Shown here: positions 8,748 to 36,016 of the stretch, one piece after another
Numbering within the stretch: the first letter of the stretch is position 1
Layout of the letters: each line of letters opens with the position of its first letter
Origin: a virus
IMG/VR virus record: IMGVR_UViG_3300010371_000069
Span: 1 to 38,450 of that record
Reading direction: 5' to 3' (one strand)
Length of the DNA: 38,450 bases
Program-made: the position numbers and the translations under genes
The notes under the pieces: generated by a model
What the model saw: only the letters and a program-made list of their open reading frames with translations
What the model was told of the DNA's origin: nothing
Database searches by the model: none

Positions 8748-9446
8748 ATGTTCGTGGGAATTCGTTCGTCGCTCGCGCAGGCCGCGGCGGCAGTGTTCAA
8801 CCTGCAACTCTTCACCGATGGAGACGACCCCGAACTCGGCCCAGCGCTCGAGATCGATGTTGACGCCCTTGGTGACGACGTCGTTAAACTCAAGACGATG
8901 CTCGGCAAAGCGTTGCACGAGAATAAGAAAGTTCGGCAGCAAGCCGGTAAGTACCGTACGGGGCTTCGTACCGCTGAATCAGAGCGGGACGCAGCGCGCG
9001 TACAAGTAACTGGCCTTGAGACCGAAAAGACCGATCTTAGCGGTAAGCTCGAAACAGCAAACCGCGCAAACGGTCAGTACAAAACGAACTTCAAGACGCA
9101 ACTGGTCGACCGAGCGTTGAAAGACGCGCTTAAGGCGGCTGGCGCGATCGATGTTGATCTCGTCGCAGGTGCAGTACCACGAGACAAGATTACCTGCGAC
9201 GACGAAACCTTCGCGCTCGGTGGCGTTGAAGACGTCGTAAAAGCCTTCCAAGAAGAGAAGGCGCATCTCTTCGGAAAACGGGCCCCTCCCCCGGTCACAG
9301 GCCGACATGGCCCTGGCCCCACAGGTGGCCCAACTGGCGCACCCACCACGACCGTCGACTATCGCGACACTTCAAAGACGCTCGAGCAACTCGAACGTGA
9401 ATCGAATATCGCGCAGTTCGGTCGACCCACCCTCGCAGGCGGCTAA
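8748..9446 (+). CDS. Capsid scaffolding protein
   Basis: A 232-residue protein starting at ATG 8748 behind TAGGAGA. A hydrophobic N-terminal leader ends in FNLQLFT (residues 17-23), the Prp cleavage motif; cutting after Phe would remove about 22 residues. Residues 45-120 are a long coiled coil (KLKTMLGKALHENKKVRQQ onwards). The C-terminus is Gly/Pro-rich then basic, as in scaffolds that bind capsid protein. It would direct procapsid assembly and leave before or during packaging. The stop codon lies in the loop of an intrinsic terminator. Confidence 0.85.
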   Translation: MFVGIRSSLAQAAAAVFNLQLFTDGDDPELGPALEIDVDALGDDVVKLKTMLGKALHENKKVRQQAGKYRTGLRTAESERDAARVQVTGLETEKTDLSGKLETANRANGQYKTNFKTQLVDRALKDALKAAGAIDVDLVAGAVPRDKITCDDETFALGGVEDVVKAFQEEKAHLFGKRAPPPVTGRHGPGPTGGPTGAPTTTVDYRDTSKTLEQLERESNIAQFGRPTLAGG

Positions 9447-9459
9447 AAGCCGCCTTTTT
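9438..9459 (+). terminator. Rho-independent terminator on the scaffold stop codon
   Basis: GGCGGC (9438-9443) and GCCGCC (9449-9454) form a 6-bp stem with loop TAAAA, followed by TTTTT. The scaffold TAA stop is part of the loop, so translating ribosomes would cover the stem. It separates scaffold from capsid gene; no clear promoter was found between them. Confidence 0.6.
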
Positions 9460-9531
9460 ACTTGCAGCGTTTGCTCGGGACAGGTGCCCGGTAGCGCGCT
9501 TCTCTCATCGACTAATGGAGGAAGACGCTTC

Positions 9532-11079
9532 ATGCGTGGCTCTCATCTCGGTGCGACGCTGCTTGCTGCTATCGCAGCGAAGTTCGATCTGCAGCTTTTC
9601 ACCAATACCAACGTCTCGCAATTCCCGGGACCGATTGCGAACGAACTTCAGCAAGGGTACCTCGAACGAGCGTACCAACCGGGTCTCGAACCCAACGAAG
9701 TCTACAACCTCGCTTGCGATCGTCTCGATGTCCCGGCGCACACCGGCGACACGCTGACGCGCACCAAGCCGGGCCTCTTGACCGCAAACGAAGATCCGGT
9801 CGATCCATCGCTCGCCACCGGCCTTACGAACGGCATGACGAACGAGCAGTACGCTAACGAACAGTACACCGTCACGATGGAACTGTTCAACGGCACGCAA
9901 ACCATCGACATCAAGACCTCGCCGATGGGTATCCTCGATCGTTGGCGCCGAGTCGTAAAGGCTGGCGTGAAACAGTCGCGCCAATCCGTCGACCGCTATC
10001 GCCGTAACCAGCTCATGGGCGGCCTGTGCGTATCGAAAGGCGGCCTCAAGCTCGTCAACGGTTACCTCGGTGGCACGACCATCGTGACTACAGCCACCAC
10101 GACGTCGACCACCTGTCATGTCGACGATGCGTCGGGCTTCACGTTCACGCTGGTAAATGGCGATCAGGTTCCGGTCAGTGGCGGCGCACCGTTGCCGTTG
10201 CTGAAGAATGGCGTGCAGATCGCGAACGTCATCGGGTTTACGCTCGATACCACGAACGCGCTCGTCAATGTCAAGACCGGTGCGGCCGTCGGTAACGGCG
10301 GTAGCTCGCTGCGCGTCATGCGTGGCACGAACGCCGCTCTGGCGTCGTCTCCGACCGTCGCACTCGGGACGAACGTCTCGGGCCGTGGCGCATCGGCTAC
10401 GCTCACGTTAGATACGGCTGTATCGTTCGCCGCCGGCGACGTGGTCCAATCCGGCTTCGCGCCGAAGATCGTCTATCCGAACGGGAAGGCGCACTTCTCG
10501 CAGCTCGGTAACTCCGATCTCTTCTCTGAAGCCGCCATCCTCGATATGGTCGCCTATCTGCGCGATGCGCAGGTGCCCCCCATCATCGACGACATGTACG
10601 CGTGCGTGCTCGACAACACCACGTGGCGTCAGCTCTACGCAGACCAAGACTTCAAGCAGGCGTTCGAAACGCGCGGCGGCGATCCGGTCTACGCAAAGGC
10701 TCGCCTCGCGTCGCACCTTGGCGTCGCGTTCTTCATGAGCACGAACGCTCCGTACACTCCGGCGCAAGCGGGGCTTTCGAATCCCGTCCGGTGGCCGGTC
10801 GTGTTTGGGCAAGGCGCTCTTGTCGACGGCATCTCGGAAATCAATGGCATGTTCGCCGACATCAACGACGAGGAGAAGAAATTCGCCTACGTCAGCGAGA
10901 CCGACGGCATCTGTACTGCGATTCGCCCGCCGATCGACAACAACGGTCGCTTCGTTCAAGTGTCGTGGGAGACGATCCGCGGCGACGTTGTGCCGACCGA
11001 CCTCACGGCCAACGGCATCGTCGAATCTGCAGGTTACGGCTACGCGAAGCGCGCCGTGTTCTGCCCGGTTCGCGGCTAA
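9532..11079 (+). CDS. Major capsid protein
   Basis: A 515-residue protein starting at ATG 9532 after GGAGGAAG. The leader (LGATLLAAIAAKFDLQLFT) ends in the same Prp motif as the scaffold, at residues 18-24; cleavage after Phe would leave ~492 residues. The body has the features of a phage capsid protein: RVVKAGVKQSRQSVDRYRR, a core beta region near DDMYACVLDNTTWRQLYAD, and ending in conserved-looking strands. Residues ~178-312 form a Thr/Val/Gly-rich beta segment (TIVTTATTTSTTC and so on) that looks like an inserted domain projecting from the shell. Position after the scaffold and the matching leader make the assignment firm. Confidence 0.85.
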   Translation: MRGSHLGATLLAAIAAKFDLQLFTNTNVSQFPGPIANELQQGYLERAYQPGLEPNEVYNLACDRLDVPAHTGDTLTRTKPGLLTANEDPVDPSLATGLTNGMTNEQYANEQYTVTMELFNGTQTIDIKTSPMGILDRWRRVVKAGVKQSRQSVDRYRRNQLMGGLCVSKGGLKLVNGYLGGTTIVTTATTTSTTCHVDDASGFTFTLVNGDQVPVSGGAPLPLLKNGVQIANVIGFTLDTTNALVNVKTGAAVGNGGSSLRVMRGTNAALASSPTVALGTNVSGRGASATLTLDTAVSFAAGDVVQSGFAPKIVYPNGKAHFSQLGNSDLFSEAAILDMVAYLRDAQVPPIIDDMYACVLDNTTWRQLYADQDFKQAFETRGGDPVYAKARLASHLGVAFFMSTNAPYTPAQAGLSNPVRWPVVFGQGALVDGISEINGMFADINDEEKKFAYVSETDGICTAIRPPIDNNGRFVQVSWETIRGDVVPTDLTANGIVESAGYGYAKRAVFCPVRG

Positions 11080-11536: not shown

Positions 11537-12394
11537 ATGCTGACCGAACAACAAAAGGACGAGGTCGAGCGGCACCTTCGCTATCCCTCTTCGGGTGCAT
11601 CGTATAGCCAACTCGGGCCGCCGTTCCTCGCGCAATTAGGTACCGGGGCCGGCATGCTCGGCTTTCCGACAGATCCCGCGAATATCGGTCTACGCTTTCG
11701 CCTTAATAACTTGCCGATCGACATCGAAGTTAAAGTCGTTGGCGCGGATCATCCGAACTTCGACCTCTACCTCGCAAGCGGCGGCGTCGACATTCCGGTG
11801 ACGATTCCCGGGGCGATTACCGTGGGCGACCCCGCGATCGTACAGATCGATCAACAAGCCTTCACGCACACGCTAGCAGCCGGTGATACCGCAATCATCG
11901 TTGCGGCCGCGATCGCGCAGCAGATTACAAGCGACCCGATCTTGGGACCATCCTTCGTCGCTGTACCGCTCTCGAACCTTATTCAGGTTCGATCACGTAT
12001 GTATGGTTCGAAGTTTAACTCGACGTCGGTCTCGGTATTCAGCGGAGCGTCGATCACGCTCGCCGTGAATCAACCCGGCACGAGCACGCCGACGAAACGC
12101 ATTTTTGGCGGGAACGACCCGCCAGGTCCGGTGTTCGTTGACCCGAACGCCAATCCGTCGGTGCCGATCTATGGGTACTTGCCGTGGTGCCGGTTCTGGG
12201 AGAATCAAATCGGCCTCTCGGCCGATGGCATGGACACAATCAAGGCCGACGTCTTCACGCAAGAGCGCCTTGAATACGGCAAGCGGCGCAAAGCGTATTT
12301 CGATGCGTGTCGCGATCTCGCGCAAGCGCTCGGTATTCAGTACGCCGGTGGCGGAACGTTCGACGGTGGCGGCCCCCGCCGCCGTACCACCTAG
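11537..12394 (+). CDS. Probable head-tail connector protein with inserted beta domain
   Basis: A 285-residue protein. The N-terminus (LTEQQKDEVERHLRYPSSG) and C-terminus (ERLEYGKRRKAYFDACRDLAQALGI) resemble the two helical ends of phage head-tail connector or adaptor proteins. Between them, residues ~60-180 are a beta-rich insert with the pattern VGDPAIVQIDQQAFTHTLAAGDTAIIVAAAIAQQI. The same module type recurs in the tail-terminator candidate at 13516. The arrangement suggests a short ancestral connector enlarged by insertion. It would sit below the portal. The next gene has a strong AGGAGAGA before it. Confidence 0.6.
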   Translation: MLTEQQKDEVERHLRYPSSGASYSQLGPPFLAQLGTGAGMLGFPTDPANIGLRFRLNNLPIDIEVKVVGADHPNFDLYLASGGVDIPVTIPGAITVGDPAIVQIDQQAFTHTLAAGDTAIIVAAAIAQQITSDPILGPSFVAVPLSNLIQVRSRMYGSKFNSTSVSVFSGASITLAVNQPGTSTPTKRIFGGNDPPGPVFVDPNANPSVPIYGYLPWCRFWENQIGLSADGMDTIKADVFTQERLEYGKRRKAYFDACRDLAQALGIQYAGGGTFDGGGPRRRTT

Positions 12395-12402
12395 GAGAGA
12401 GC

Positions 12403-13164
12403 ATGAGCAGCATTGCCCGCTTCGATCGAAAGATTCAGCGCGGGCGCGGCAAGGCTGCGCACAAACTCGGCCAGACGTATACCGTGCAGCGCTGGACGCC
12501 CACGACGAACGTATCGGTAACCTCAAACCCGCAAGTTGTCGTTGGCCTTGAGATTATTCCCGACAAGACGTCGCGTAAGGACCTCATCGAGAACGACACA
12601 TTCGGTCTTCAGGTGTTCGTCGCTACGTGCAATAATAAAAAATTGCTCATCGGCGACGTTCTGACCGAAACCGGCTACCAGGCGCGCAAGAACAACGTCT
12701 TTACGGTTGCGCAGATCCGGCCAACAAAGGCAACGCTCCTCGTGCGCACCGAGTTCGCGTGTGGTCTCACCTGGCCACGGCCGCATGCCGGCCAGTCGTC
12801 TCAGCAGCCTGTCTCGGGATCGCAAGAAGAAACAGGATACGGCGGCAGCGACGATGCGAGCGAGTGGATACTCTCGCTGGTCAATGGTGACTATTTCTTC
12901 ACAAATGCGCTCGGTGCTACGCCGGCTACGGTTCAATGCGGAATTGTTCCACGCGAGCGCGTTCGGGACGGAAACTTTCTCGGAACTCCCACCGACTTAC
13001 CCCGTGCGCAGTTCATCGTTTATGTGCCGAACCTGAATGGTCAAGCGCTCGACGTGTATCATCGTATCAAGTTTCCAAACGGCGACAAGTACGAGATTAA
13101 GTCTTTCGGGAACAGCGACGATGCAGGCTTTGAGGGTTACGTTTGCGTCTGTGAGAAGGTCTGA
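12403..13164 (+). CDS. Hypothetical head-tail completion protein
   Basis: A 253-residue protein from ATG 12403, with AGGAGAGA just upstream. It begins with a basic segment (SIARFDRKIQRGRGKAAHK), then beta-rich regions with a possible two-part structure: residues 20-120 and, after a Gly/Ser/Gln linker near 125-145, residues 150-253 (FIVYVPNLNGQALDVYHRI and others). The place between the connector and the tail terminator suggests a neck or tail-completion role. The stop overlaps the start of the receiver-domain gene (TGATG), so they are translated together. Confidence 0.5.
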   Translation: MSSIARFDRKIQRGRGKAAHKLGQTYTVQRWTPTTNVSVTSNPQVVVGLEIIPDKTSRKDLIENDTFGLQVFVATCNNKKLLIGDVLTETGYQARKNNVFTVAQIRPTKATLLVRTEFACGLTWPRPHAGQSSQQPVSGSQEETGYGGSDDASEWILSLVNGDYFFTNALGATPATVQCGIVPRERVRDGNFLGTPTDLPRAQFIVYVPNLNGQALDVYHRIKFPNGDKYEIKSFGNSDDAGFEGYVCVCEKV

Positions 13165-13529
13165 TGGCGCGCTTTGTTGTTGTCGACGATAGCCAGCCGT
13201 TTCGCTCGATGCTCGCGCGCATTCTACGCCAAGCCGGACACCAAGTCATCGGCGAAGCCGGCGATGGCCGCGAAGGATTGGCCCTCGTTCATCGGCTGAA
13301 GCCCGACGCGGTGACGCTTGACATTATCATGCCGAGTAAGAATGGCGATGATGTTGCGCGCGAACTCCTTGATGGGGGCTTCCCGGTCAAAGTCTTTATG
13401 GTGTCATCGATGTCGCAGAGAGCGGTCTACGAGCCGCTCATGCAAGCCGGTGCGCACTTCATCTCGAAGCCATACATGCCCGATAAGGTCGTGAAGATCG
13501 TCACGCGAGGTTTGAATGGGAAGCCTTGA
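13164..13529 (+). CDS. CheY-like response-regulator receiver protein
   Basis: A 121-residue single-domain receiver protein. All catalytic residues of the family are in place: acidic pair D8-D9 in FVVVDDS, phospho-acceptor D53 in VTLDIIMP with MP at +3/+4, G61, the switch Ser S81 in MVSSMS (Thr87 of CheY), and K102 in ISKPY (Lys109). F99 occupies the Tyr106 place. No output domain follows, as in CheY. It resembles CheY of the Bacillus/Thermotoga kind (SSMSQR near the switch). It overlaps the upstream gene by one base and the downstream gene by up to 14, inside the neck/tail cluster, so it is co-translated with virion proteins. No histidine kinase is encoded nearby. Role unknown: host signalling interference or a domesticated structural part are both possible. 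Confidence 0.9.
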   Translation: MARFVVVDDSQPFRSMLARILRQAGHQVIGEAGDGREGLALVHRLKPDAVTLDIIMPSKNGDDVARELLDGGFPVKVFMVSSMSQRAVYEPLMQAGAHFISKPYMPDKVVKIVTRGLNGKP

Positions 13530-14379
13530 CATGGCGCTCGCCGCGATCCGCAGTACCGTGAACGCGACGCTCGAAGCCGCGAACCTCGTGAGCGAGCCCG
13601 ATCAAGTATTCGTTGGCTGGCCGACCGGTCAAGAACTCCACGATGTCATGCATCAACCCGGTGCTGGCTCCCAGGTTTCGATCTGGCCGTTCGATGACCC
13701 AAAGCCTTGCCCGCGCTATCACCCGACGAAGGAACTGATTTCCACGAACGCGCCGGGCGTGCAAGCATCGCTTGATTCAACGAAGCAGATCCTCACGTTT
13801 TCGGGGACGCCCAAGACGGGTGACCTCGTGCATGCCTTCTTCGGTAAGCCTCTTGTCGACGCAAATTACACCGTGATCGCGGGCGACACGCCAGCATCGA
13901 TCGCAGCAGCCATTCTCGCTAAAGCGAACACCGAGATGCCCGCCGGCGTCCACATCACGATCAGCGGCGCAGCACTTACGGTTACCGGGGCGTTCTGGCA
14001 GCGGTGCAACATCGGACAAGTCGATGCGGCGACATACTCTCGCGAGATCAATCGCATGTCGCAAACAGTGCAGGTCAATGTGTGGTCGCCAAACGCGCAA
14101 GAGCGTTCGGATATTGCGAAGGTGATCGAGACGAATCTCGGCGGCACGAATCAACCGTTTCTCATGATGGCCGACGGCACCGGACTGCGCTTTAAATATG
14201 CGGGGCCGAAATGGCGCGATCAGGCGCAGCAAGCGTACTCCGCGTATCGCGCGATCTTGCTCTTTCAAATCGAGTACGGCATCACGCAGATCATCAACAC
14301 GACCTCAGTTGAGGCAATCGAAGGCACCATCACAGCCGATGGCTCCGCACCCATTACCGTTATAACCGGAGGACCATAG
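13516..14379 (+). CDS. Probable tail terminator/tail completion protein
   Basis: A 287-residue protein. Either ATG 13516 (GAGG five bases upstream, overlapping the receiver gene) or ATG 13531 (GGGAAG upstream, giving MALAAIRS) could be the start. Ends resemble myophage tail-completion proteins: VQVNVWSPNAQERSDIAKVIETNL and YRAILLFQIEYGI near the C-terminus. A central insert (~90-155) has the pattern TGDLVHAFF then YTVIAGDTPASIAAAILAKAN, like the insert of the 11537 gene. Its position immediately before the sheath supports a role in closing the tail top. Function is inferred. Confidence 0.6.
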   Translation: MGSLDMALAAIRSTVNATLEAANLVSEPDQVFVGWPTGQELHDVMHQPGAGSQVSIWPFDDPKPCPRYHPTKELISTNAPGVQASLDSTKQILTFSGTPKTGDLVHAFFGKPLVDANYTVIAGDTPASIAAAILAKANTEMPAGVHITISGAALTVTGAFWQRCNIGQVDAATYSREINRMSQTVQVNVWSPNAQERSDIAKVIETNLGGTNQPFLMMADGTGLRFKYAGPKWRDQAQQAYSAYRAILLFQIEYGITQIINTTSVEAIEGTITADGSAPITVITGGP

Positions 14380-14609: not shown

Positions 14610-16193
14610 ATGCCAACCTTTACCGTCGTCAGTAACACGCAATCGGGGAACTTTCAATCAGACGGCGTGTATATGACGAAACTCCCCGTTGCGAGTGCTG
14701 CGCAATCGGGCCCGCCGACGAACCAAGTCGTCGTCATTGGGTCTGGCTCGTGGGGCAAACGTAACACGCCTCTTTTCTTCTCGGATGAGAAGAGCGGCGG
14801 CGCCGCTATCGGTATCCGCACCGATCTCGTGAAGTCCGCGCTGCGCGAAGCGCTTTCGGGGATGCCCGAGTGCACGCAGTTCATGGCGATTCTCGTTGAC
14901 GATGGAACGTCGACGCTCGCGACGATGACGCTCATGGACACCGCCACGCCGACCCCGGCGGCGCTCATCAACGGCACCGCCGTCTGCCCGGGAACCGATG
15001 CAAACTCCGCATCGATCGTCGCAACGCTGCAAAGCGGCACGCTCACGAACGCTCCAGTACTATCAATCACGCGGTTCTGGATCGATGGCTCGGCGCAAAC
15101 GTGGAACAACATCGTAGGTTACTCGGCCGCGAACGGCCCATTCGTCGCTGCCACGTTCCAAACGAATGCACTCGCAGCTCTGAACGGAACCGCGAGCGGT
15201 CAAGTTCCCGACCCGTACTTCGTCTACACCGCCGGATCATCAGCCACGACGCCGCAAGTTGGCGTAGCGTTCGCCGCATCGGGCGGAACGAACGGAGATT
15301 CCGGCGTAACCGACACGACCCTGGTCGGCACCGTCACTGGCTCAACGCTGAAAGGCATGCAAGCGGCTACCGGTCTCATCTGGGGCTCGCAACTTGTGCT
15401 CGCCGACTTCACGACTGCTGCGCTCTTCGCTGCGGTTGCGCAATTCGCGAATGTGGAAGGTGCCGACGGGTGGTCGACGTTCGCATCGGGCACCGACTAC
15501 ATCACGGCGATCGCGAACAAGACGTCCAACACCATGAGCGACGACAACATGAATGTCATCATGGATTGGGCTTACGTCTTCGATAAGTACCAAAAGGCGC
15601 AGATTCTCGTCTCGCCACTTGGCAAGGCCGCTGGCATCGTCGCTAGTCTCGACCCGTTCGCCTATCCGGGCAACAAGCCGCAGGATGGGGCGGAAGGTAT
15701 CTCGTCTACCGAACGTCTTGCGAAGGGTGCCATCGGTATCTCCGAGCGCGGCCAACGCGAGTCGAACAACATCAATTGGCTCGACTACGACAACGGCAAA
15801 TGGGTGCTCGCACATGGGCTTACGTCCGCCGGGCGTCAGATCAATGAGATTCGGGCGCAGAAGTACATCATGTATCGCGCGGGTCAGATCGCGAAGCTCT
15901 ACCAGGGCGGCGACGTCGAATCCACCGTTCCGTTTGCGCAAGCGGATGAGAACGACGCACGCAAGCAACTCTACACGGCGTTGCTCGGGCTGCAAACTGA
16001 ACTGCAAGGTAAGGTGAGCAGCATGGGGATCATCCTAAATGATTCCAACAACTCGCCTGCATCGTTGGCCGCCGGCTTCCTCAACTTCGAGCTCGATGTG
16101 ACGACGCGCGCAGGCGTGCAGTACATCATCGGCGCTACGAAGGTTGGCAACGCCGTCAAAGTCACCGCTCCCCCGCTTCCGCTGGCCGCTTAG
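14610..16193 (+). CDS. Tail sheath protein
   Basis: A 527-residue contractile sheath subunit, with GGAGG before ATG 14610. The N-terminal part carries the sheath-like VVVIGSGSWGKRNTPLFFSD segment, the middle domain is Thr/Gly-rich and variable, and the C-terminal domain (LAHGLTSAGRQINEIRAQKYI to the final strands) matches the conserved domain of sheath proteins that polymerises around the tube. Length is in the normal range for Mu-type gpL. Gene order sheath-tube-chaperones-tape measure confirms a myovirus-type tail. Confidence 0.85.
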   Translation: MPTFTVVSNTQSGNFQSDGVYMTKLPVASAAQSGPPTNQVVVIGSGSWGKRNTPLFFSDEKSGGAAIGIRTDLVKSALREALSGMPECTQFMAILVDDGTSTLATMTLMDTATPTPAALINGTAVCPGTDANSASIVATLQSGTLTNAPVLSITRFWIDGSAQTWNNIVGYSAANGPFVAATFQTNALAALNGTASGQVPDPYFVYTAGSSATTPQVGVAFAASGGTNGDSGVTDTTLVGTVTGSTLKGMQAATGLIWGSQLVLADFTTAALFAAVAQFANVEGADGWSTFASGTDYITAIANKTSNTMSDDNMNVIMDWAYVFDKYQKAQILVSPLGKAAGIVASLDPFAYPGNKPQDGAEGISSTERLAKGAIGISERGQRESNNINWLDYDNGKWVLAHGLTSAGRQINEIRAQKYIMYRAGQIAKLYQGGDVESTVPFAQADENDARKQLYTALLGLQTELQGKVSSMGIILNDSNNSPASLAAGFLNFELDVTTRAGVQYIIGATKVGNAVKVTAPPLPLAA

Positions 16194-16207: not shown

Positions 16208-16660
16208 ATGTCCGACGGCTTTATCAACATCGGCACCGATCAAGCGATCATCATCACGAACGATGCGAACAAGGGCACCGTATCGCTCGATGGTCGCCGC
16301 ACGAAGTTCCGCGCGAAGGCAAAAGACCAACTCTTCACGGGAGATGCGGTCGACCAAGGCGGAAAGGTCGATCACCGCGTTCAGCCCCGTGGCTGGAACG
16401 GCTCAATCGAGTGTGAGCGAAACTCTTCAGAGTTCTCGCAGACGATGGCCGCGATCGAGAAGGCGAAGTACGCCGGCGGTGCCGAGCAATTCTTCACGAT
16501 CACGACCTACGAAGAGGACGCCGACAAGAGCGAAACCTCGATCTGGAACTACACCAAGTGCGTGTTCCACGACTTCGACTCGGGCGAGTGGGCGTTGAGC
16601 ACGGTGAAACCGATGTTCACGTTCGAGGCGCAAGAGAAACTGTTCATGGGGGTCGTCTAG
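16208..16660 (+). CDS. Tail tube protein
   Basis: A 150-residue protein in the invariant place after the sheath, with GGGAGG upstream. Beta-rich with the length and character of myophage tube proteins (VDHRVQPRGWNGSIECERNS, WALSTVKPMFTFEAQEKL). It would form the inner hexameric tube that is pushed through the envelope on sheath contraction. No oddities. Confidence 0.8.
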   Translation: MSDGFINIGTDQAIIITNDANKGTVSLDGRRTKFRAKAKDQLFTGDAVDQGGKVDHRVQPRGWNGSIECERNSSEFSQTMAAIEKAKYAGGAEQFFTITTYEEDADKSETSIWNYTKCVFHDFDSGEWALSTVKPMFTFEAQEKLFMGVV

Positions 16661-27955: not shown

Positions 27956-30184
27956 GTGCGAAAGATCATGAGCGCCGCTCTCGCGGCGCTTTTCGTTGTC
28001 CTCTCGATCGCGCCAGCGTTCGCCGGAAGCCGCGTCATTTGGTATCCAAACCAGAACCCGACGGCCGAAGGGCTCAATAGCATTAGCCGCTTCACGCGCC
28101 TCGCGTTGGGAACGTGGATGCGCGATGCGGCTGGCTCGAATCTTTCAGCCGGCGGATTCTATACCGACCTTACTGTCGCACCCAACGGTGGCATGTTTGT
28201 TGCAGTCTCTCCGACAACCGCGAACACGCTTGGTGCGATCTATCAGCTCGCCGTCGACGACCCGAACCCGCTTCCGCAAGGCTCGTACACGCCCCAGCTT
28301 TCTTCTGATACGACGAAGGTTATGGTGCAGGCGTTGCAAAGCGGTCCTACCGGTTCGGTTGGCCCCATCACGGCCCCGTCTTCGGGCCTTTCGCAATACT
28401 ATCTCGTCGAAGCGCAAGTGCTCACGACTGACACTGTGCCAATACCGTTCACGTTTCTCGATACGCACGGTAACCCGTCATCGCTGACGCTGAATTCGGT
28501 GCGTCAAGATCAGATCGTTTATCAACTTAAGGCCGGAACGGCTGCCTCAAGCCCTTCGCAACCCACCGTCGATACGGGATGGATTGCGATCGCGTACGTG
28601 CTGGTGCCGAGCGGTACTTCGACGATCACGTCGGGGATGATCTCAGCGGTCCCGGCGTTTCAGGGCTTCGTTGTCAACGGTAGCAACGTCACGCTTTCCG
28701 GCCTCACGATCTCGTCTTTGTCGAGCGCTGGTTGCCTTCAGAACACCGGCGCTGGCGTTGTTATCTCGTTACCGTGTACGTCTGGTCTTGGTAGCGTTGT
28801 CGGAACGAGTCCCATCAACGCGTCGACGGTAAGCGGCACCGCAACCGTTTCATGTCCGACGTGCGCTTCGGGTGTTTCCGCATCGTCGCCACTGAGTGCG
28901 AGCATTTCGAGCAACCTCCTTACGATCGCGCTGACGGGTACCGTTCCGTTTGCAAACTTGCCTTCGATTCCGACGTCGACGTGCATTGGATTTTCCGGCA
29001 CGGCGTTTACGTCGCCGGGGTGTTTGACAGGTCTCACCGCGGGCACCGGGGTCTCCGTCGGTACGGGCGCTACCCCGAGCGTCGGCCTGTCGCACGGAGA
29101 CTACGCAGATCTCGCGAGCGCGCAAACCATTGCGGGCGTGAAGACGTTTTCGAGCGCGCCTGTCATGTCGGGCGCTTCTATCTCGGCGAACACGATCGGG
29201 CAAACGTCGGTCTCCAACGGTTACGTTGATCTCTCTTCGGCACAGACGATTGCAGGCGTTAAGACGTTCTCGAACGCTCCGGTACTTTCGGGCGCTTCAA
29301 TTACGTCGTCAACGGTCGCGGCGTCATCGCTCGCCGGTGGCATCGGCCAAACGCTCATCACGAACGGCTACACCGATCTATCATCGGCGCAAACCGTTGC
29401 CGGTGCGAAGACGTTCTCGAGCGCTCCGGTCATTTCGGCGGCCACCGCTTCGGGGCTTACCATGAACGGTCAGACGACCGGAGCATCATACCTTCACATC
29501 GCAAACACAGGCGGAAGCTCCTATATTGGTATGGACAGTAGCGCGGGAACCTCAATTTGCGGTAGCGAGACGGCATACTCGCTCGCCATGTGCTCGCCTT
29601 CGACTCCTATTGCGTTTTGGTATGGCTCGACTAAGATCGCGCAAATAACAATCTCTGGGATGGCGTTCCAAAATGGCTCCTCCGTCGATGGTAATGGCCA
29701 GTTTATCTCAAATTGGGCATTTGAAAATCTCGGGGCTACGCACAATTGGCAATGGGCGGTTGGTGCGTCTGACTCAAGCCAATTCCGCTACAACGGCACG
29801 ACCCAAGTCTCGTGGGACACGTCGGGCAATGTCACGGCGACGAACTACTTCACCGGATCGCGACGAGAGTGGAAGAAGAACATCACACCATTTCGATTCG
29901 ACGCACTCGATATTCTTGGTAGCACTGATTTCGCCGAGTACGACTGCAAATCAACGCGTTGCGGACCAACCGGATTGCATAAGGTCGGCATCATTGCAAA
30001 TGATTCTCCCGCTCAAATCTCAGGCAAGGACCACGATCACTACGATGCTTTTGCTCTTGCTGCGATCGACGGAGCCGCGATAGTTGAATTACATCGGCAA
30101 GTGCTCATTCTTTATGCAATTGTGGCAGCGCTGTCGATGTGGTGCATTGGCCTAACGATTGCGGCGGTGCGTCGCAATGCGTAA
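27956..30184 (+). CDS. Fibre-like protein with signal peptide, S74 chaperone domain and C-terminal membrane helix
   Basis: A 742-residue protein starting at GTG 27956 (GGGAGA upstream). Residues 1-23 are a Sec signal peptide (MRKIMSAALAALFVVLSIAP, then AFA). The middle is Ser/Thr/Gly-rich fibre with three copies of Y-x-D-L-x-S-A-Q-T-x-A-G-x-K-T-F-S. Near residue 635 SRREWKKNI is the start of an S74 (intramolecular chaperone) domain, with the catalytic Ser and downstream Lys, followed by VGIIAND and ALAAIDGAAIVELHRQ. The last ~25 residues form a membrane helix (VLILYAIVAALSMWCIGLTI). Phage tail fibres normally have no signal peptide, so export to the envelope or a host-surface role is possible. 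Confidence 0.8.
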   Translation: MRKIMSAALAALFVVLSIAPAFAGSRVIWYPNQNPTAEGLNSISRFTRLALGTWMRDAAGSNLSAGGFYTDLTVAPNGGMFVAVSPTTANTLGAIYQLAVDDPNPLPQGSYTPQLSSDTTKVMVQALQSGPTGSVGPITAPSSGLSQYYLVEAQVLTTDTVPIPFTFLDTHGNPSSLTLNSVRQDQIVYQLKAGTAASSPSQPTVDTGWIAIAYVLVPSGTSTITSGMISAVPAFQGFVVNGSNVTLSGLTISSLSSAGCLQNTGAGVVISLPCTSGLGSVVGTSPINASTVSGTATVSCPTCASGVSASSPLSASISSNLLTIALTGTVPFANLPSIPTSTCIGFSGTAFTSPGCLTGLTAGTGVSVGTGATPSVGLSHGDYADLASAQTIAGVKTFSSAPVMSGASISANTIGQTSVSNGYVDLSSAQTIAGVKTFSNAPVLSGASITSSTVAASSLAGGIGQTLITNGYTDLSSAQTVAGAKTFSSAPVISAATASGLTMNGQTTGASYLHIANTGGSSYIGMDSSAGTSICGSETAYSLAMCSPSTPIAFWYGSTKIAQITISGMAFQNGSSVDGNGQFISNWAFENLGATHNWQWAVGASDSSQFRYNGTTQVSWDTSGNVTATNYFTGSRREWKKNITPFRFDALDILGSTDFAEYDCKSTRCGPTGLHKVGIIANDSPAQISGKDHDHYDAFALAAIDGAAIVELHRQVLILYAIVAALSMWCIGLTIAAVRRNA
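29102..29445 (+). repeat. Three imperfect repeats in the fibre gene
   Basis: Copies begin near 29102, 29222 and 29369; each encodes Y-x-D-L-x-S-A-Q-T followed by A-G-x-K-T-F-S-x-A-P-V. Spacing is about 120 to 147 bases. Such repeats are common in phage fibre shafts. Confidence 0.8.
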
Positions 30185-31051: not shown

Positions 31052-31996
31052 CTAAAACGCAAACCCGCTTACACCGGCGACCTGATACGGTCCAAAAATA
31101 TCGGTGTACGTGCAAACGCCTTGCCCGACGTTTGGACCTGCTTCGGTAATGGGCGCGAACTTCACGAGCACGCCCGCTGCGGTTTGGAAAATAAACGTAG
31201 CCGTTTCTCCCGATACGTCGCAGAGATGCACGTCGCGAATGGTCGTAACTGCGTTCGCGGCGACATAATCGGCGCTCGTCACTTGATCGATAGTCTTATT
31301 TACCTCAACGATTCCATGCGGTGCGCTTAGCGCACTCGTTGTTTGTGACGTATCGATCGATAGGTCAGGAGAAGAAGGCGCCGGCGTTGCACCAGCGGTC
31401 GTAAAGTCGAGTCCGCTCGGAGCATTGTAGCTGCTACCCGATGCGGTGCTGACACCAAGCCCCGGATAGGTATCGGCTGTAAGATTGACACTTTGACCGC
31501 CTGCGGAAAGAGTCACCGTAGTTTGGCCTGCAGCAGGCGGTGCGCCAACGCTCTCTGCACCGATGTTCGTTTTCGTTCCGGCGGTATCTCCCGGCGCTGG
31601 AACAGATCCAAGAAATTGGAGCGCTGCACCCGTTTGCGAGAATGATGGCGTTGGTAGTGGATTCGGAAGTGTGCCGCCGTTCGAAGTGTCGAGATACGCG
31701 ACGGCTTGATATGTGATCGTTGGGTTAAAGTTCGTCGGAACGTATGAGTCCGCAACGATGAACGTGGCGAACGGGATGAGTGATCCGGTAAGAATTGGGT
31801 CAGTCAACGGACGAACCGACAACGCTTGCGAGTGAACGTGCGCGTTAGCCTTAGGGCCTCCCGTTTGCGCGAAGCCCGCAGCAAGTTTTGCTGCAGCCGG
31901 TGCGCTTGTCGGCGGAGCAACCGTACCGCCTCCGCCACCACCACCGCAAGCTGCGAGTCCAGCGGCGAGCGTTGCCGCTGCAAGAAACTTTTTCAT
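31052..31996 (-). CDS. Predicted lipoprotein
   Basis: A 314-residue protein on the minus strand, ATG at 31996 with GAGGT upstream. The signal peptide ends in a lipobox L14-A15-A16-C17, followed by seven glycines and an Ala/Pro linker, so the mature protein would be lipid-anchored and exposed. The rest is beta-rich and Thr/Ser/Gly-rich (LTADTYPGLGVSTASGSS), without a recognised domain. A longer upstream frame extends to 32428 but is a shadow of the 32126 gene. With the 49-residue gene downstream it forms a separate transcription unit, a likely moron that alters the lysogen's surface, for example superinfection exclusion. This role is inferred. Confidence 0.75.
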   Translation of the reverse strand: MKKFLAAATLAAGLAACGGGGGGGTVAPPTSAPAAAKLAAGFAQTGGPKANAHVHSQALSVRPLTDPILTGSLIPFATFIVADSYVPTNFNPTITYQAVAYLDTSNGGTLPNPLPTPSFSQTGAALQFLGSVPAPGDTAGTKTNIGAESVGAPPAAGQTTVTLSAGGQSVNLTADTYPGLGVSTASGSSYNAPSGLDFTTAGATPAPSSPDLSIDTSQTTSALSAPHGIVEVNKTIDQVTSADYVAANAVTTIRDVHLCDVSGETATFIFQTAAGVLVKFAPITEAGPNVGQGVCTYTDIFGPYQVAGVSGFAF

Positions 31997-34256: not shown

Positions 34257-34341
34257 CATTTTCCAAAATGCGACAATTTAGCAACTCGTCGTTTCGAGCG
34301 TGCCACACGTATGGCAGAAGTGCATGCGATGATGAGTGCAT

Positions 34342-34535
34342 GGGGCGGGGCTCGGTAGCCGGGGTCACCTGTCAAGTTGCCCGAGCGGGTTCGACACCCG
34401 TCCGCTCCAAGCCAGGCGGTTCATCCCGCCAAGTATGGCGGAAGCTCCGCCACGTATGGTATCCTGGGTGCGACAGGTGACCCTGGAACCAGGCTCCCGA
34501 AGGCGCTCGCTATAGGCGGGCGCCTTTCATTTTGC
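34342..34535 (+). ncRNA. Structured intergenic region: candidate ncRNA or attachment-site element
   Basis: GGGTCACCTGTC (34362-34373) and GACAGGTGACCC (34472-34483) are perfectly complementary, 98 bases apart. Inside are a T-arm-like hairpin (stem GCGGG/CCCGT around TTCGACA, 34385-34401), GGCGG/CCGCC (34415-34430) and TGGCGGA/TCCGCCA (34436-34452). The sequence from 34342 (GGGGCGG) can also pair with CCGCTCC (34402-34408) like an acceptor stem, but no proper anticodon arm exists. It ends in the terminator at 34502-34535. The stretch 34257-34341 before it has no clear promoter. It could be a structured RNA, or carry the phage attachment site beside the recombinase. Confidence 0.45.
34502..34535 (+). 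terminator. Rho-independent terminator
   Basis: GGCGC-T-CGC pairs with GCG-G-GCGCC (one G-U pair) around a short TATAG loop, followed by TTTCATTTT. It ends any transcript of the structured region just before the 3' end of the convergent recombinase gene. Confidence 0.8.
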
Positions 34536-34537
34536 CA

Positions 34538-36016
34538 TTAGGGCTCCTGAGCGAGTGCTGCCAGGGTGAAGAGCGCCCGGTATGGCGTTTCACGTGAAAT
34601 AGTCTCGGCTTTTTTGCGCGTCTTGCCATGCGAAATAAGCAGGCGATTCTTGCGCTTTGGATCGACCCATAGGCCACCGACGAGTGCACTCACGGCCTGC
34701 GCGATCTCTTGTTGCGCCGCAACGTCCGCCGTCGCCCATGTTTGCGCGGCGAGCGCGAGCGCGTCGCTTGCGCTGCCCCAAAGTTTCGACGCGGCCTCTG
34801 CCCGCACGATCGCGCGCTCCGTTTCGGCGATCGACTGCGACAGGTGTTCGCTCTTTGAGCGCAATTCTTCAAATCGTTGTGCGACGTCGTTTTTCGGGAT
34901 GCTGCCGTCTTCGGCGAGTTCCCACACCCGCGCGCGTCGCTTCGCAACCGATTCGAGTTCGAGTTCGAGCGAATGCTTTCGGCTACGAAGGCCGGGCACG
35001 TCGGTCGCGCGCTCTTTGTACGCGGCGATCATCTCCGGGTTGGCCGCGATCTTGGCGAGCAGGTCGCCGAATTGCCGTTCGATTTCGTTTGCATTCTGCC
35101 CGGGGTAGCCACCATGCGCAGCGACGTCGACGCAGACGTAGTACCGCTGCCGCCACGGCGGCGAGCCGCTTGTGCGGCCGGTTACCGCAAGACCGCATAT
35201 GCAGCGAAGGGCGCCGCGCATCGGCCAGGGGTTCTTGGCGTCCTGGCGCGCGATCGCACCGCGACGCATGGCGACCACCTCATCGAAGAGTTCTTGCGCG
35301 ATGATGGTGCCGCGGTAAGCCTCGTTCTTGAGAATCTGCGTCAACGTCGTTGTCTGCCACTTCACCGGCTTCAGCGTACCGCTCTTGAGGCGCTTTGCCG
35401 GCGCGTGTTTTCGCGCGTGGGTTGAAAGTTGCGCGTACCCCATGCCGCGCGCCCGCAATTCAAATAACTGACGCAGGTATGCCGCCTCTGGCTCGTAGAC
35501 GTGCAAATGCTTGTCGACGACGACGAAGCCATACGGCGGAAGACCTTGGACCTCGCCGGCAGCGCGCTTGCGCGCGTGCATAGCGACGGACTTGTCGCGA
35601 CGGGCCTCGTTTTCGAGCGACCCCGTTAGGACGCGCAGAATGGGGACGAGCGCGTCAGAGGCCGTGCGAATTGATACATCACCGTCTTGACGCGTGTGGA
35701 CGATGACACCGAGGTTATAGATTTCCGCAAGCGCTGCGAGCGGTTCGATCGCTAAACCGCGGCCGGTGCGGTCAAGGCGCGTCATCAAGATGCGTTGAGG
35801 TCGCTGCGCCTTTGGGATGGCCTTCAGAGCATCGAGGAGTTCCTGGAGTAGCTTGCGGGTGCCGGCCGCACCTGAGGATGTACCCTCAAAGGTGCGAGCG
35901 ATCTCCCAGCCGTTCGTAAGAGCCGCTTCCCTCGCCCAGGACGCTTGATCCGGCAGCGTGTCGGCCTGTCGATCGGAGGAAACGACGCAGTACACCCAGG
36001 CCTTTTGCTGCGTCAA
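34538..36016 (-). CDS. Large serine recombinase (integrase)
   Basis: A 492-residue site-specific recombinase on the minus strand. Residues 1-140 are the resolvase domain with nucleophile S13 (Y-C-V-V-S-S-D-R-Q), R54 region (GTRKLL) and LDRTGRG with D82, R83 and R86. Then comes the recombinase domain (PPYGFVVVDKHLHVYEPEA ...), a zinc ribbon with RCICGLAV and VCVD, and a coiled coil with C-terminal helices. Such enzymes integrate phage DNA without host factors apart from a directionality factor. An oddity: the Arg of the Y-x-R-V-S motif is Val (residue 11). Start is TTG 36016, overlapping the stop of a small upstream gene. Confidence 0.9.
   Translation of the reverse strand: MTQQKAWVYCVVSSDRQADTLPDQASWAREAALTNGWEIARTFEGTSSGAAGTRKLLQELLDALKAIPKAQRPQRILMTRLDRTGRGLAIEPLAALAEIYNLGVIVHTRQDGDVSIRTASDALVPILRVLTGSLENEARRDKSVAMHARKRAAGEVQGLPPYGFVVVDKHLHVYEPEAAYLRQLFELRARGMGYAQLSTHARKHAPAKRLKSGTLKPVKWQTTTLTQILKNEAYRGTIIAQELFDEVVAMRRGAIARQDAKNPWPMRGALRCICGLAVTGRTSGSPPWRQRYYVCVDVAAHGGYPGQNANEIERQFGDLLAKIAANPEMIAAYKERATDVPGLRSRKHSLELELESVAKRRARVWELAEDGSIPKNDVAQRFEELRSKSEHLSQSIAETERAIVRAEAASKLWGSASDALALAAQTWATADVAAQQEIAQAVSALVGGLWVDPKRKNRLLISHGKTRKKAETISRETPYRALFTLAALAQEP

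Follow-up and report, generated by a model that had tools for sequence, protein, structure and literature searches.

A linear, 38,450-base virus record from IMG/VR (IMGVR_UViG_3300010371_000069), here analyzed in its entirety and referred to as the window, encodes a single-domain CheY-type receiver in a fixed slot between two genes of the neck region, and receivers occupy the same slot in three deeply diverged phages. The phospho-acceptor half of the domain is held in all four proteins whereas the output half has moved. On the strength of these sequence comparisons, we tentatively propose, with somewhat less than even confidence, that the receiver obtains its phosphate from a host kinase and acts as a decoy, a phosphate sink or a retargeted switch on host signaling.

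The phage and its morphogenesis module

The record encodes a terminase, a portal protein, a major head protein, a tail sheath, a baseplate J protein, a phage lysozyme and a serine recombinase, and hence represents a phage with a contractile tail that is probably temperate. The part of the morphogenesis module that is relevant here consists of the following genes:

9430..11079, + strand: major head protein (phrog_1357); the exact start is uncertain
11537..12394, + strand: gene of the head-completion region, conserved on the upstream side of the receiver slot (weak match to phrog_14539)
12403..13164, + strand: phrog_14605-like gene of the neck region, upstream of the receiver; its stop overlaps the receiver ATG, and its start codon is uncertain
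13164..13529, + strand: CheY-type receiver, single domain, 121 aa (D8, D9, D53, S81, K102)
13516..14379, + strand: phrog_13532-like gene downstream of the receiver; predicted fold similar to neck/tail-terminator proteins, weak TM scores
14379..14603, + strand: small gene between the phrog_13532-like gene and the sheath gene, syntenic in relatives too
14610..16193, + strand: tail sheath (phrog_23, E 1.5e-8)
16208..16660, + strand: probable tail tube (phrog_12993-like), with the function predicted from the position after the sheath

A Foldseek search with the model of the phrog_13532-like product retrieved neck and terminator proteins of phages 812, P1 and E217 and a PVC cap protein, with good probabilities and low TM scores; this gene likely encodes a neck protein, probably the tail terminator. 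A profile search against solved structures with the product of the upstream gene (12403-13164) gave no match.

Elsewhere in the window, a GIY-YIG endonuclease, possibly a homing endonuclease, is encoded near the terminase region (2370-2750, + strand), and ARAGORN calls a tRNA-Asp (34334-34408, + strand) that adjoins the serine recombinase gene (34538-36016, - strand) and could indicate an attachment site, unless the call is spurious. Opposite to the late genes, a lipoprotein-like protein without a Pfam match is encoded (31052-31924, - strand) in which a poly-Gly stretch follows a lipobox-like Cys (LAACGGGGGGG). The gene may serve lysogenic conversion and may hint at the host; an Eremiobacterota host, the idea that we drew from it, is a guess.

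An intact receiver coupled to neck-region genes

The receiver gene starts with ATG, preceded by the SD-like motif GAGAAGG, and its product matches the Pfam profile Response_reg (PF00072) with E 4.2e-19 and 69.2 bits, compared to a cut-off of 30.2; no other receiver is encoded in the record. The active-site set of PF00072 is complete, with the acidic pair (D8, D9), the phospho-acceptor Asp (D53), the Ser/Thr (S81) and the Lys (K102) all aligned with invariant or near-invariant positions of related CheY proteins. An open reading frame of 121 codons with a full receiver profile and every catalytic residue is far beyond chance, in agreement with the first-pass annotation, which had described an intact CheY-like receiver. 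The codon usage of the gene is mid-range among the structural genes of the phage.

The receiver ATG shares 1 nt with the TGA of the upstream gene (TGATG). The downstream gene starts either at ATG 13516, which yields a 14-nt overlap, or at ATG 13531, 1 nt past the receiver stop; the former is favored because one of the relatives (L193) has an identical 14-nt overlap between the receiver and downstream genes and a similar N-terminus of the downstream protein. The first-pass annotation had the gene overlapping both neighbors, which holds for the upstream one and, for the downstream one, depends on the choice of start (14 nt or none), and its conclusion that the receiver is translationally coupled to its surroundings within the neck/tail cluster is borne out by the upstream overlap and by the downstream one favored through L193.

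The AlphaFold model of the receiver (pLDDT 94.5) has the (beta/alpha)5 fold of PF00072, with Thermotoga CheY as the best fold match (TM 0.89). Among solved structures, the CheY proteins of archaea and Thermotoga are closest in sequence, and the closest proteins in the sampled genomes are stand-alone CheYs from Bacillota (44% identity), from the group around L005 (42%) and from Thermococcus (42%), so that the top matches in both PDB and genomes are stand-alone CheY-type receivers. The receiver reaches no NCBIfam equivalog cut-off. No copy close enough to represent a recent donor was found among the sampled bacteria, in which the host phylum may not be represented, and a search of the Chloroflexota class for the host returned only an already-known receiver-free prophage and marginal matches.

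Receivers in the same slot of three diverged phages

A scan of IMG/VR with a CheY alignment identified three phages (L187, L188 and L193) with a receiver gene between homologs of 12403-13164 and 13516-14379, in morphogenesis modules that are syntenic with that of the window. In L187, the slot additionally accommodates an endonuclease-like gene plus a small gene; in L188, the receiver gene is directly followed by a small gene. The upstream gene scores 125-169 bits in these three phages compared to at most 32 bits in receiver-free loci. In the tree of phrog_13532-like proteins, the four receiver phages form one deep clade (SH-aLRT 94, approximately 30% identity), and in the receiver tree the four phage receivers group together with support of 91/87, which is not decisive; the supports are moderate and the branches long. 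The single clade on the neighbor gene together with the grouped receivers points to one old acquisition, which appears to be the simplest reading of the sequences. The three relatives were found by a receiver query, and head-protein scans did not reach their clade; accordingly, the clade may include receiver-free members, and conservation of the receiver in all members cannot be claimed.

These findings overturned our own initial view of the gene as a singleton insertion, which had been drawn from about 100 receiver-free loci before the receiver-profile scan revealed the three same-slot phages; exact-peptide scans with the receiver, sheath, terminase, downstream gene product and baseplate J protein of the window had retrieved no relatives. 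They also answer the check suggested by the first-pass annotation, which was to search related phages for the gene and to assess D53: the receiver is in the same slot in L187, L188 and L193 with D53 and the lysine kept, and neither of the outcomes that the annotation had set against its own reading was observed, namely absence from all relatives with relaxed D53/K102 or a recent insertion from the host. Receiver matches in INPHARED came mostly from unannotated records that likely hold bacterial DNA, and the match in Pseudomonas phage Komp_PAO1_1 is a LuxR-type regulator encoded outside the tail block.

In two relatives, small proteins of 74 and 76 aa directly adjoin the receiver, at L198:12898-13122 and L188:4356-4586 (G1512 29388-29618), respectively. 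The two are possibly weakly similar (17 of 2000 shuffles reach the score), and such a small protein could be a receiver partner.

The same junction in receiver-free relatives

In the wider family, for which loci were gathered through head-protein scans of IMG/VR and through phrog_13532 in genomes, the phrog_14605-like/phrog_13532-like junction contains a receiver in none of the 93 distinct loci that have both genes. The two genes are separated by less than 150 nt in 86 of these loci and by more in the remaining 7, and whole-record searches of 20 related records detected no receiver anywhere. The Komagataeibacter phage phiKX1 and prophages of Acetobacterales (the order sampled around G351) and Chloroflexota show the same gene order as the window from the head protein to the baseplate but, unlike the window phage, have the phrog_14605-like and phrog_13532-like genes adjacent, without a receiver.

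Other ORFs or longer spacers are present at this junction in L063:7561-8502, L125:7653-8066, L131 (L052 contig, 15377-16050), L017:8228-8683 and L147. Pfam names none of the junction ORFs that were tested, and the glycosyltransferase assignment considered for the L063 ORF was a guess without support. The junction may mildly favor insertions. The phrog_13532 gene itself is found in 165 of the 397 genomes of the G351 order, mostly in one copy each, a frequency that suggests either that such prophages are very common or that a tail device has been domesticated.

Retention of the phospho-site and divergence of the output half

The phage receivers show approximately 32-36% identity to the window copy, and all four retain D8, D9, D53, S/T81 and the lysine. 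The spacing between the conserved Gly and this Lys is 6 in all four (L193 and L188 by hand alignment) compared to 7 in 44 of 44 other receivers; the phage proteins thus appear, in these alignments, to be one residue short before the catalytic lysine (between G96 and K102 in the window). With the scan-pattern columns removed, identity across the phage receivers is 0.24 in the C-terminal half versus 0.39 in the N-terminal half; among 3948 matched quartets of other receivers, only 31 reach so low a value. The phage receivers thus depart from CheY in both the conserved output face and the G-to-K spacing of 7. The greater divergence of the C-terminal half along with the intact catalytic residues indicates that the phospho-acceptor half has been held while the output half has moved, a divergence that adaptation to a phage partner might also explain.

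Possible functions of the phage receiver

The three roles put forward by the first-pass annotation, namely interference with host signaling, sensing of the host through a borrowed kinase and a domesticated virion part, are all compatible with the sequences. Under the scenario that we propose, a CheY-class receiver gene would have been acquired once, long ago, by a contractile-tail phage ancestral to the clade, and this gene would have settled between the phrog_14605-like and phrog_13532-like genes, to be translated with the neck proteins. No HATPase_c (histidine kinase) domain was detected in the four phage records, which may be incomplete, so that a kinase could still be encoded elsewhere in these phages; this negative result is what would be expected if the phosphate on D53 came from a host kinase or a small phosphodonor. 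Given the CheY ancestry of the receiver, the kinase would be CheA-like. Because the alpha4-beta5-alpha5 face is shortened and diverged, the flagellar switch is probably no longer driven as it is by CheY, and the receiver would most likely drain a host kinase, as a decoy or phosphate sink, or else switch another host protein. Phages are known to target host kinases and motility: the phage protein PIT4 acts on host two-component kinases and on motility (PMC10714779). The late structural block is an odd place, with respect to timing, for a gene that reprograms the host, and this counts against a role in host signaling.

Late expression is better suited to assembly than to host control, and the main alternative, possible if on the unlikely side, is that the receiver is a virion or assembly part that binds the flanking neck/terminator proteins and serves as a scaffold or phospho-switch in head-tail joining, or else travels in the virion and is injected. 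Co-translation with neck genes on either side, the resemblance of the downstream gene product to neck proteins and the retention of the slot across deep divergence in four phages all favor such a role. However, vertical inheritance alone would produce the synteny, and the 93 receiver-free loci show that necks can generally be built without the receiver. A particular variant, in which phosphorylation set by a host kinase gates head-tail joining, either in neck assembly or through a neck-carried protein destined for the next host, seems to us rather improbable; if it were true, the phage would read host signaling during virion morphogenesis. We give about as little credence to a working CheY mimic, a phosphorylated receiver that engages the flagellar switch, or the type IV pilus machinery, of the host and alters swimming or twitching: the closest cellular relatives are indeed stand-alone chemotaxis CheYs (42-44% identity), and the switch aromatic F99 and T/S81 are retained, but divergence is strongest in the CheY output face, which is also one residue shorter.

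That the gene is passenger cargo in a permissive junction, with no strong present function, is very unlikely. In 7 of the 93 relatives, unrelated spacers or ORFs do occupy this junction, which indicates that the site tolerates insertions; yet the codon usage matches that of the phage, and a neutral gene would have decayed, whereas four deeply diverged copies are all open with all catalytic residues kept. An artefact of assembly or host contamination has a negligible probability, even though many receiver matches among the collected phages seem to come from bacterial DNA within phage records: the gene lies in mid-cassette with overlapping reading frames, and the shared, syntenic arrangement on four independent contigs refutes this explanation. 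The proposed action on host signaling and its alternatives raise the question of what a phage gains from host-kinase phosphate during neck building; late draining of host signaling or phosphorylation-gated assembly would, if true, be new for this phage group.

Comparison with known receivers

The phage receiver shares with the CheY proteins of Thermotoga maritima and archaea (PDB 1tmy, 4qyw, 6er7) the fold, the length, D8/D9/D53/S81/K102 and membership in the CheY subfamily. It differs from them in sequence (approximately 40% identity), in being one residue shorter before beta5, in its diverged alpha4-beta5-alpha5 output face and in its context, being phage-borne within a neck cassette, with no che genes adjoining. 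Phosphate-sink receivers are a known design (PMC4214558) and, like the phage receiver, stand alone, lack an output domain and have an intact phospho-site; for the phage receiver, the draining of a kinase shared with another regulator, which defines a sink, is putative.

The closest precedents for the location are the CheY-like genes reported in late tail/host-recognition modules of the Alteromonas phages V22 (gp30) and A5 (gp11), which are annotated as auxiliary metabolic genes of putative function (PMC7289586, PMC10579305). The first-pass annotation knew of no established role for a single-domain response regulator in a tail-assembly cassette; as far as the class of location is concerned, these phages show that it is not unprecedented. 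The V22 and A5 proteins are nevertheless only about 22% identical to the phage receivers described here, lie on a very long separate branch and do not group with them, and the A5 gene adjoins tail-fiber chaperone and lysis genes rather than neck genes; a homologous receiver in the same late module is thus not what the window contains. CheY-like genes of phages usually appear in annotations as auxiliary genes. Those described here stand out because, in four deeply diverged phages, they occupy one fixed position between neck genes and combine a retained phospho-site with a remodeled output face.
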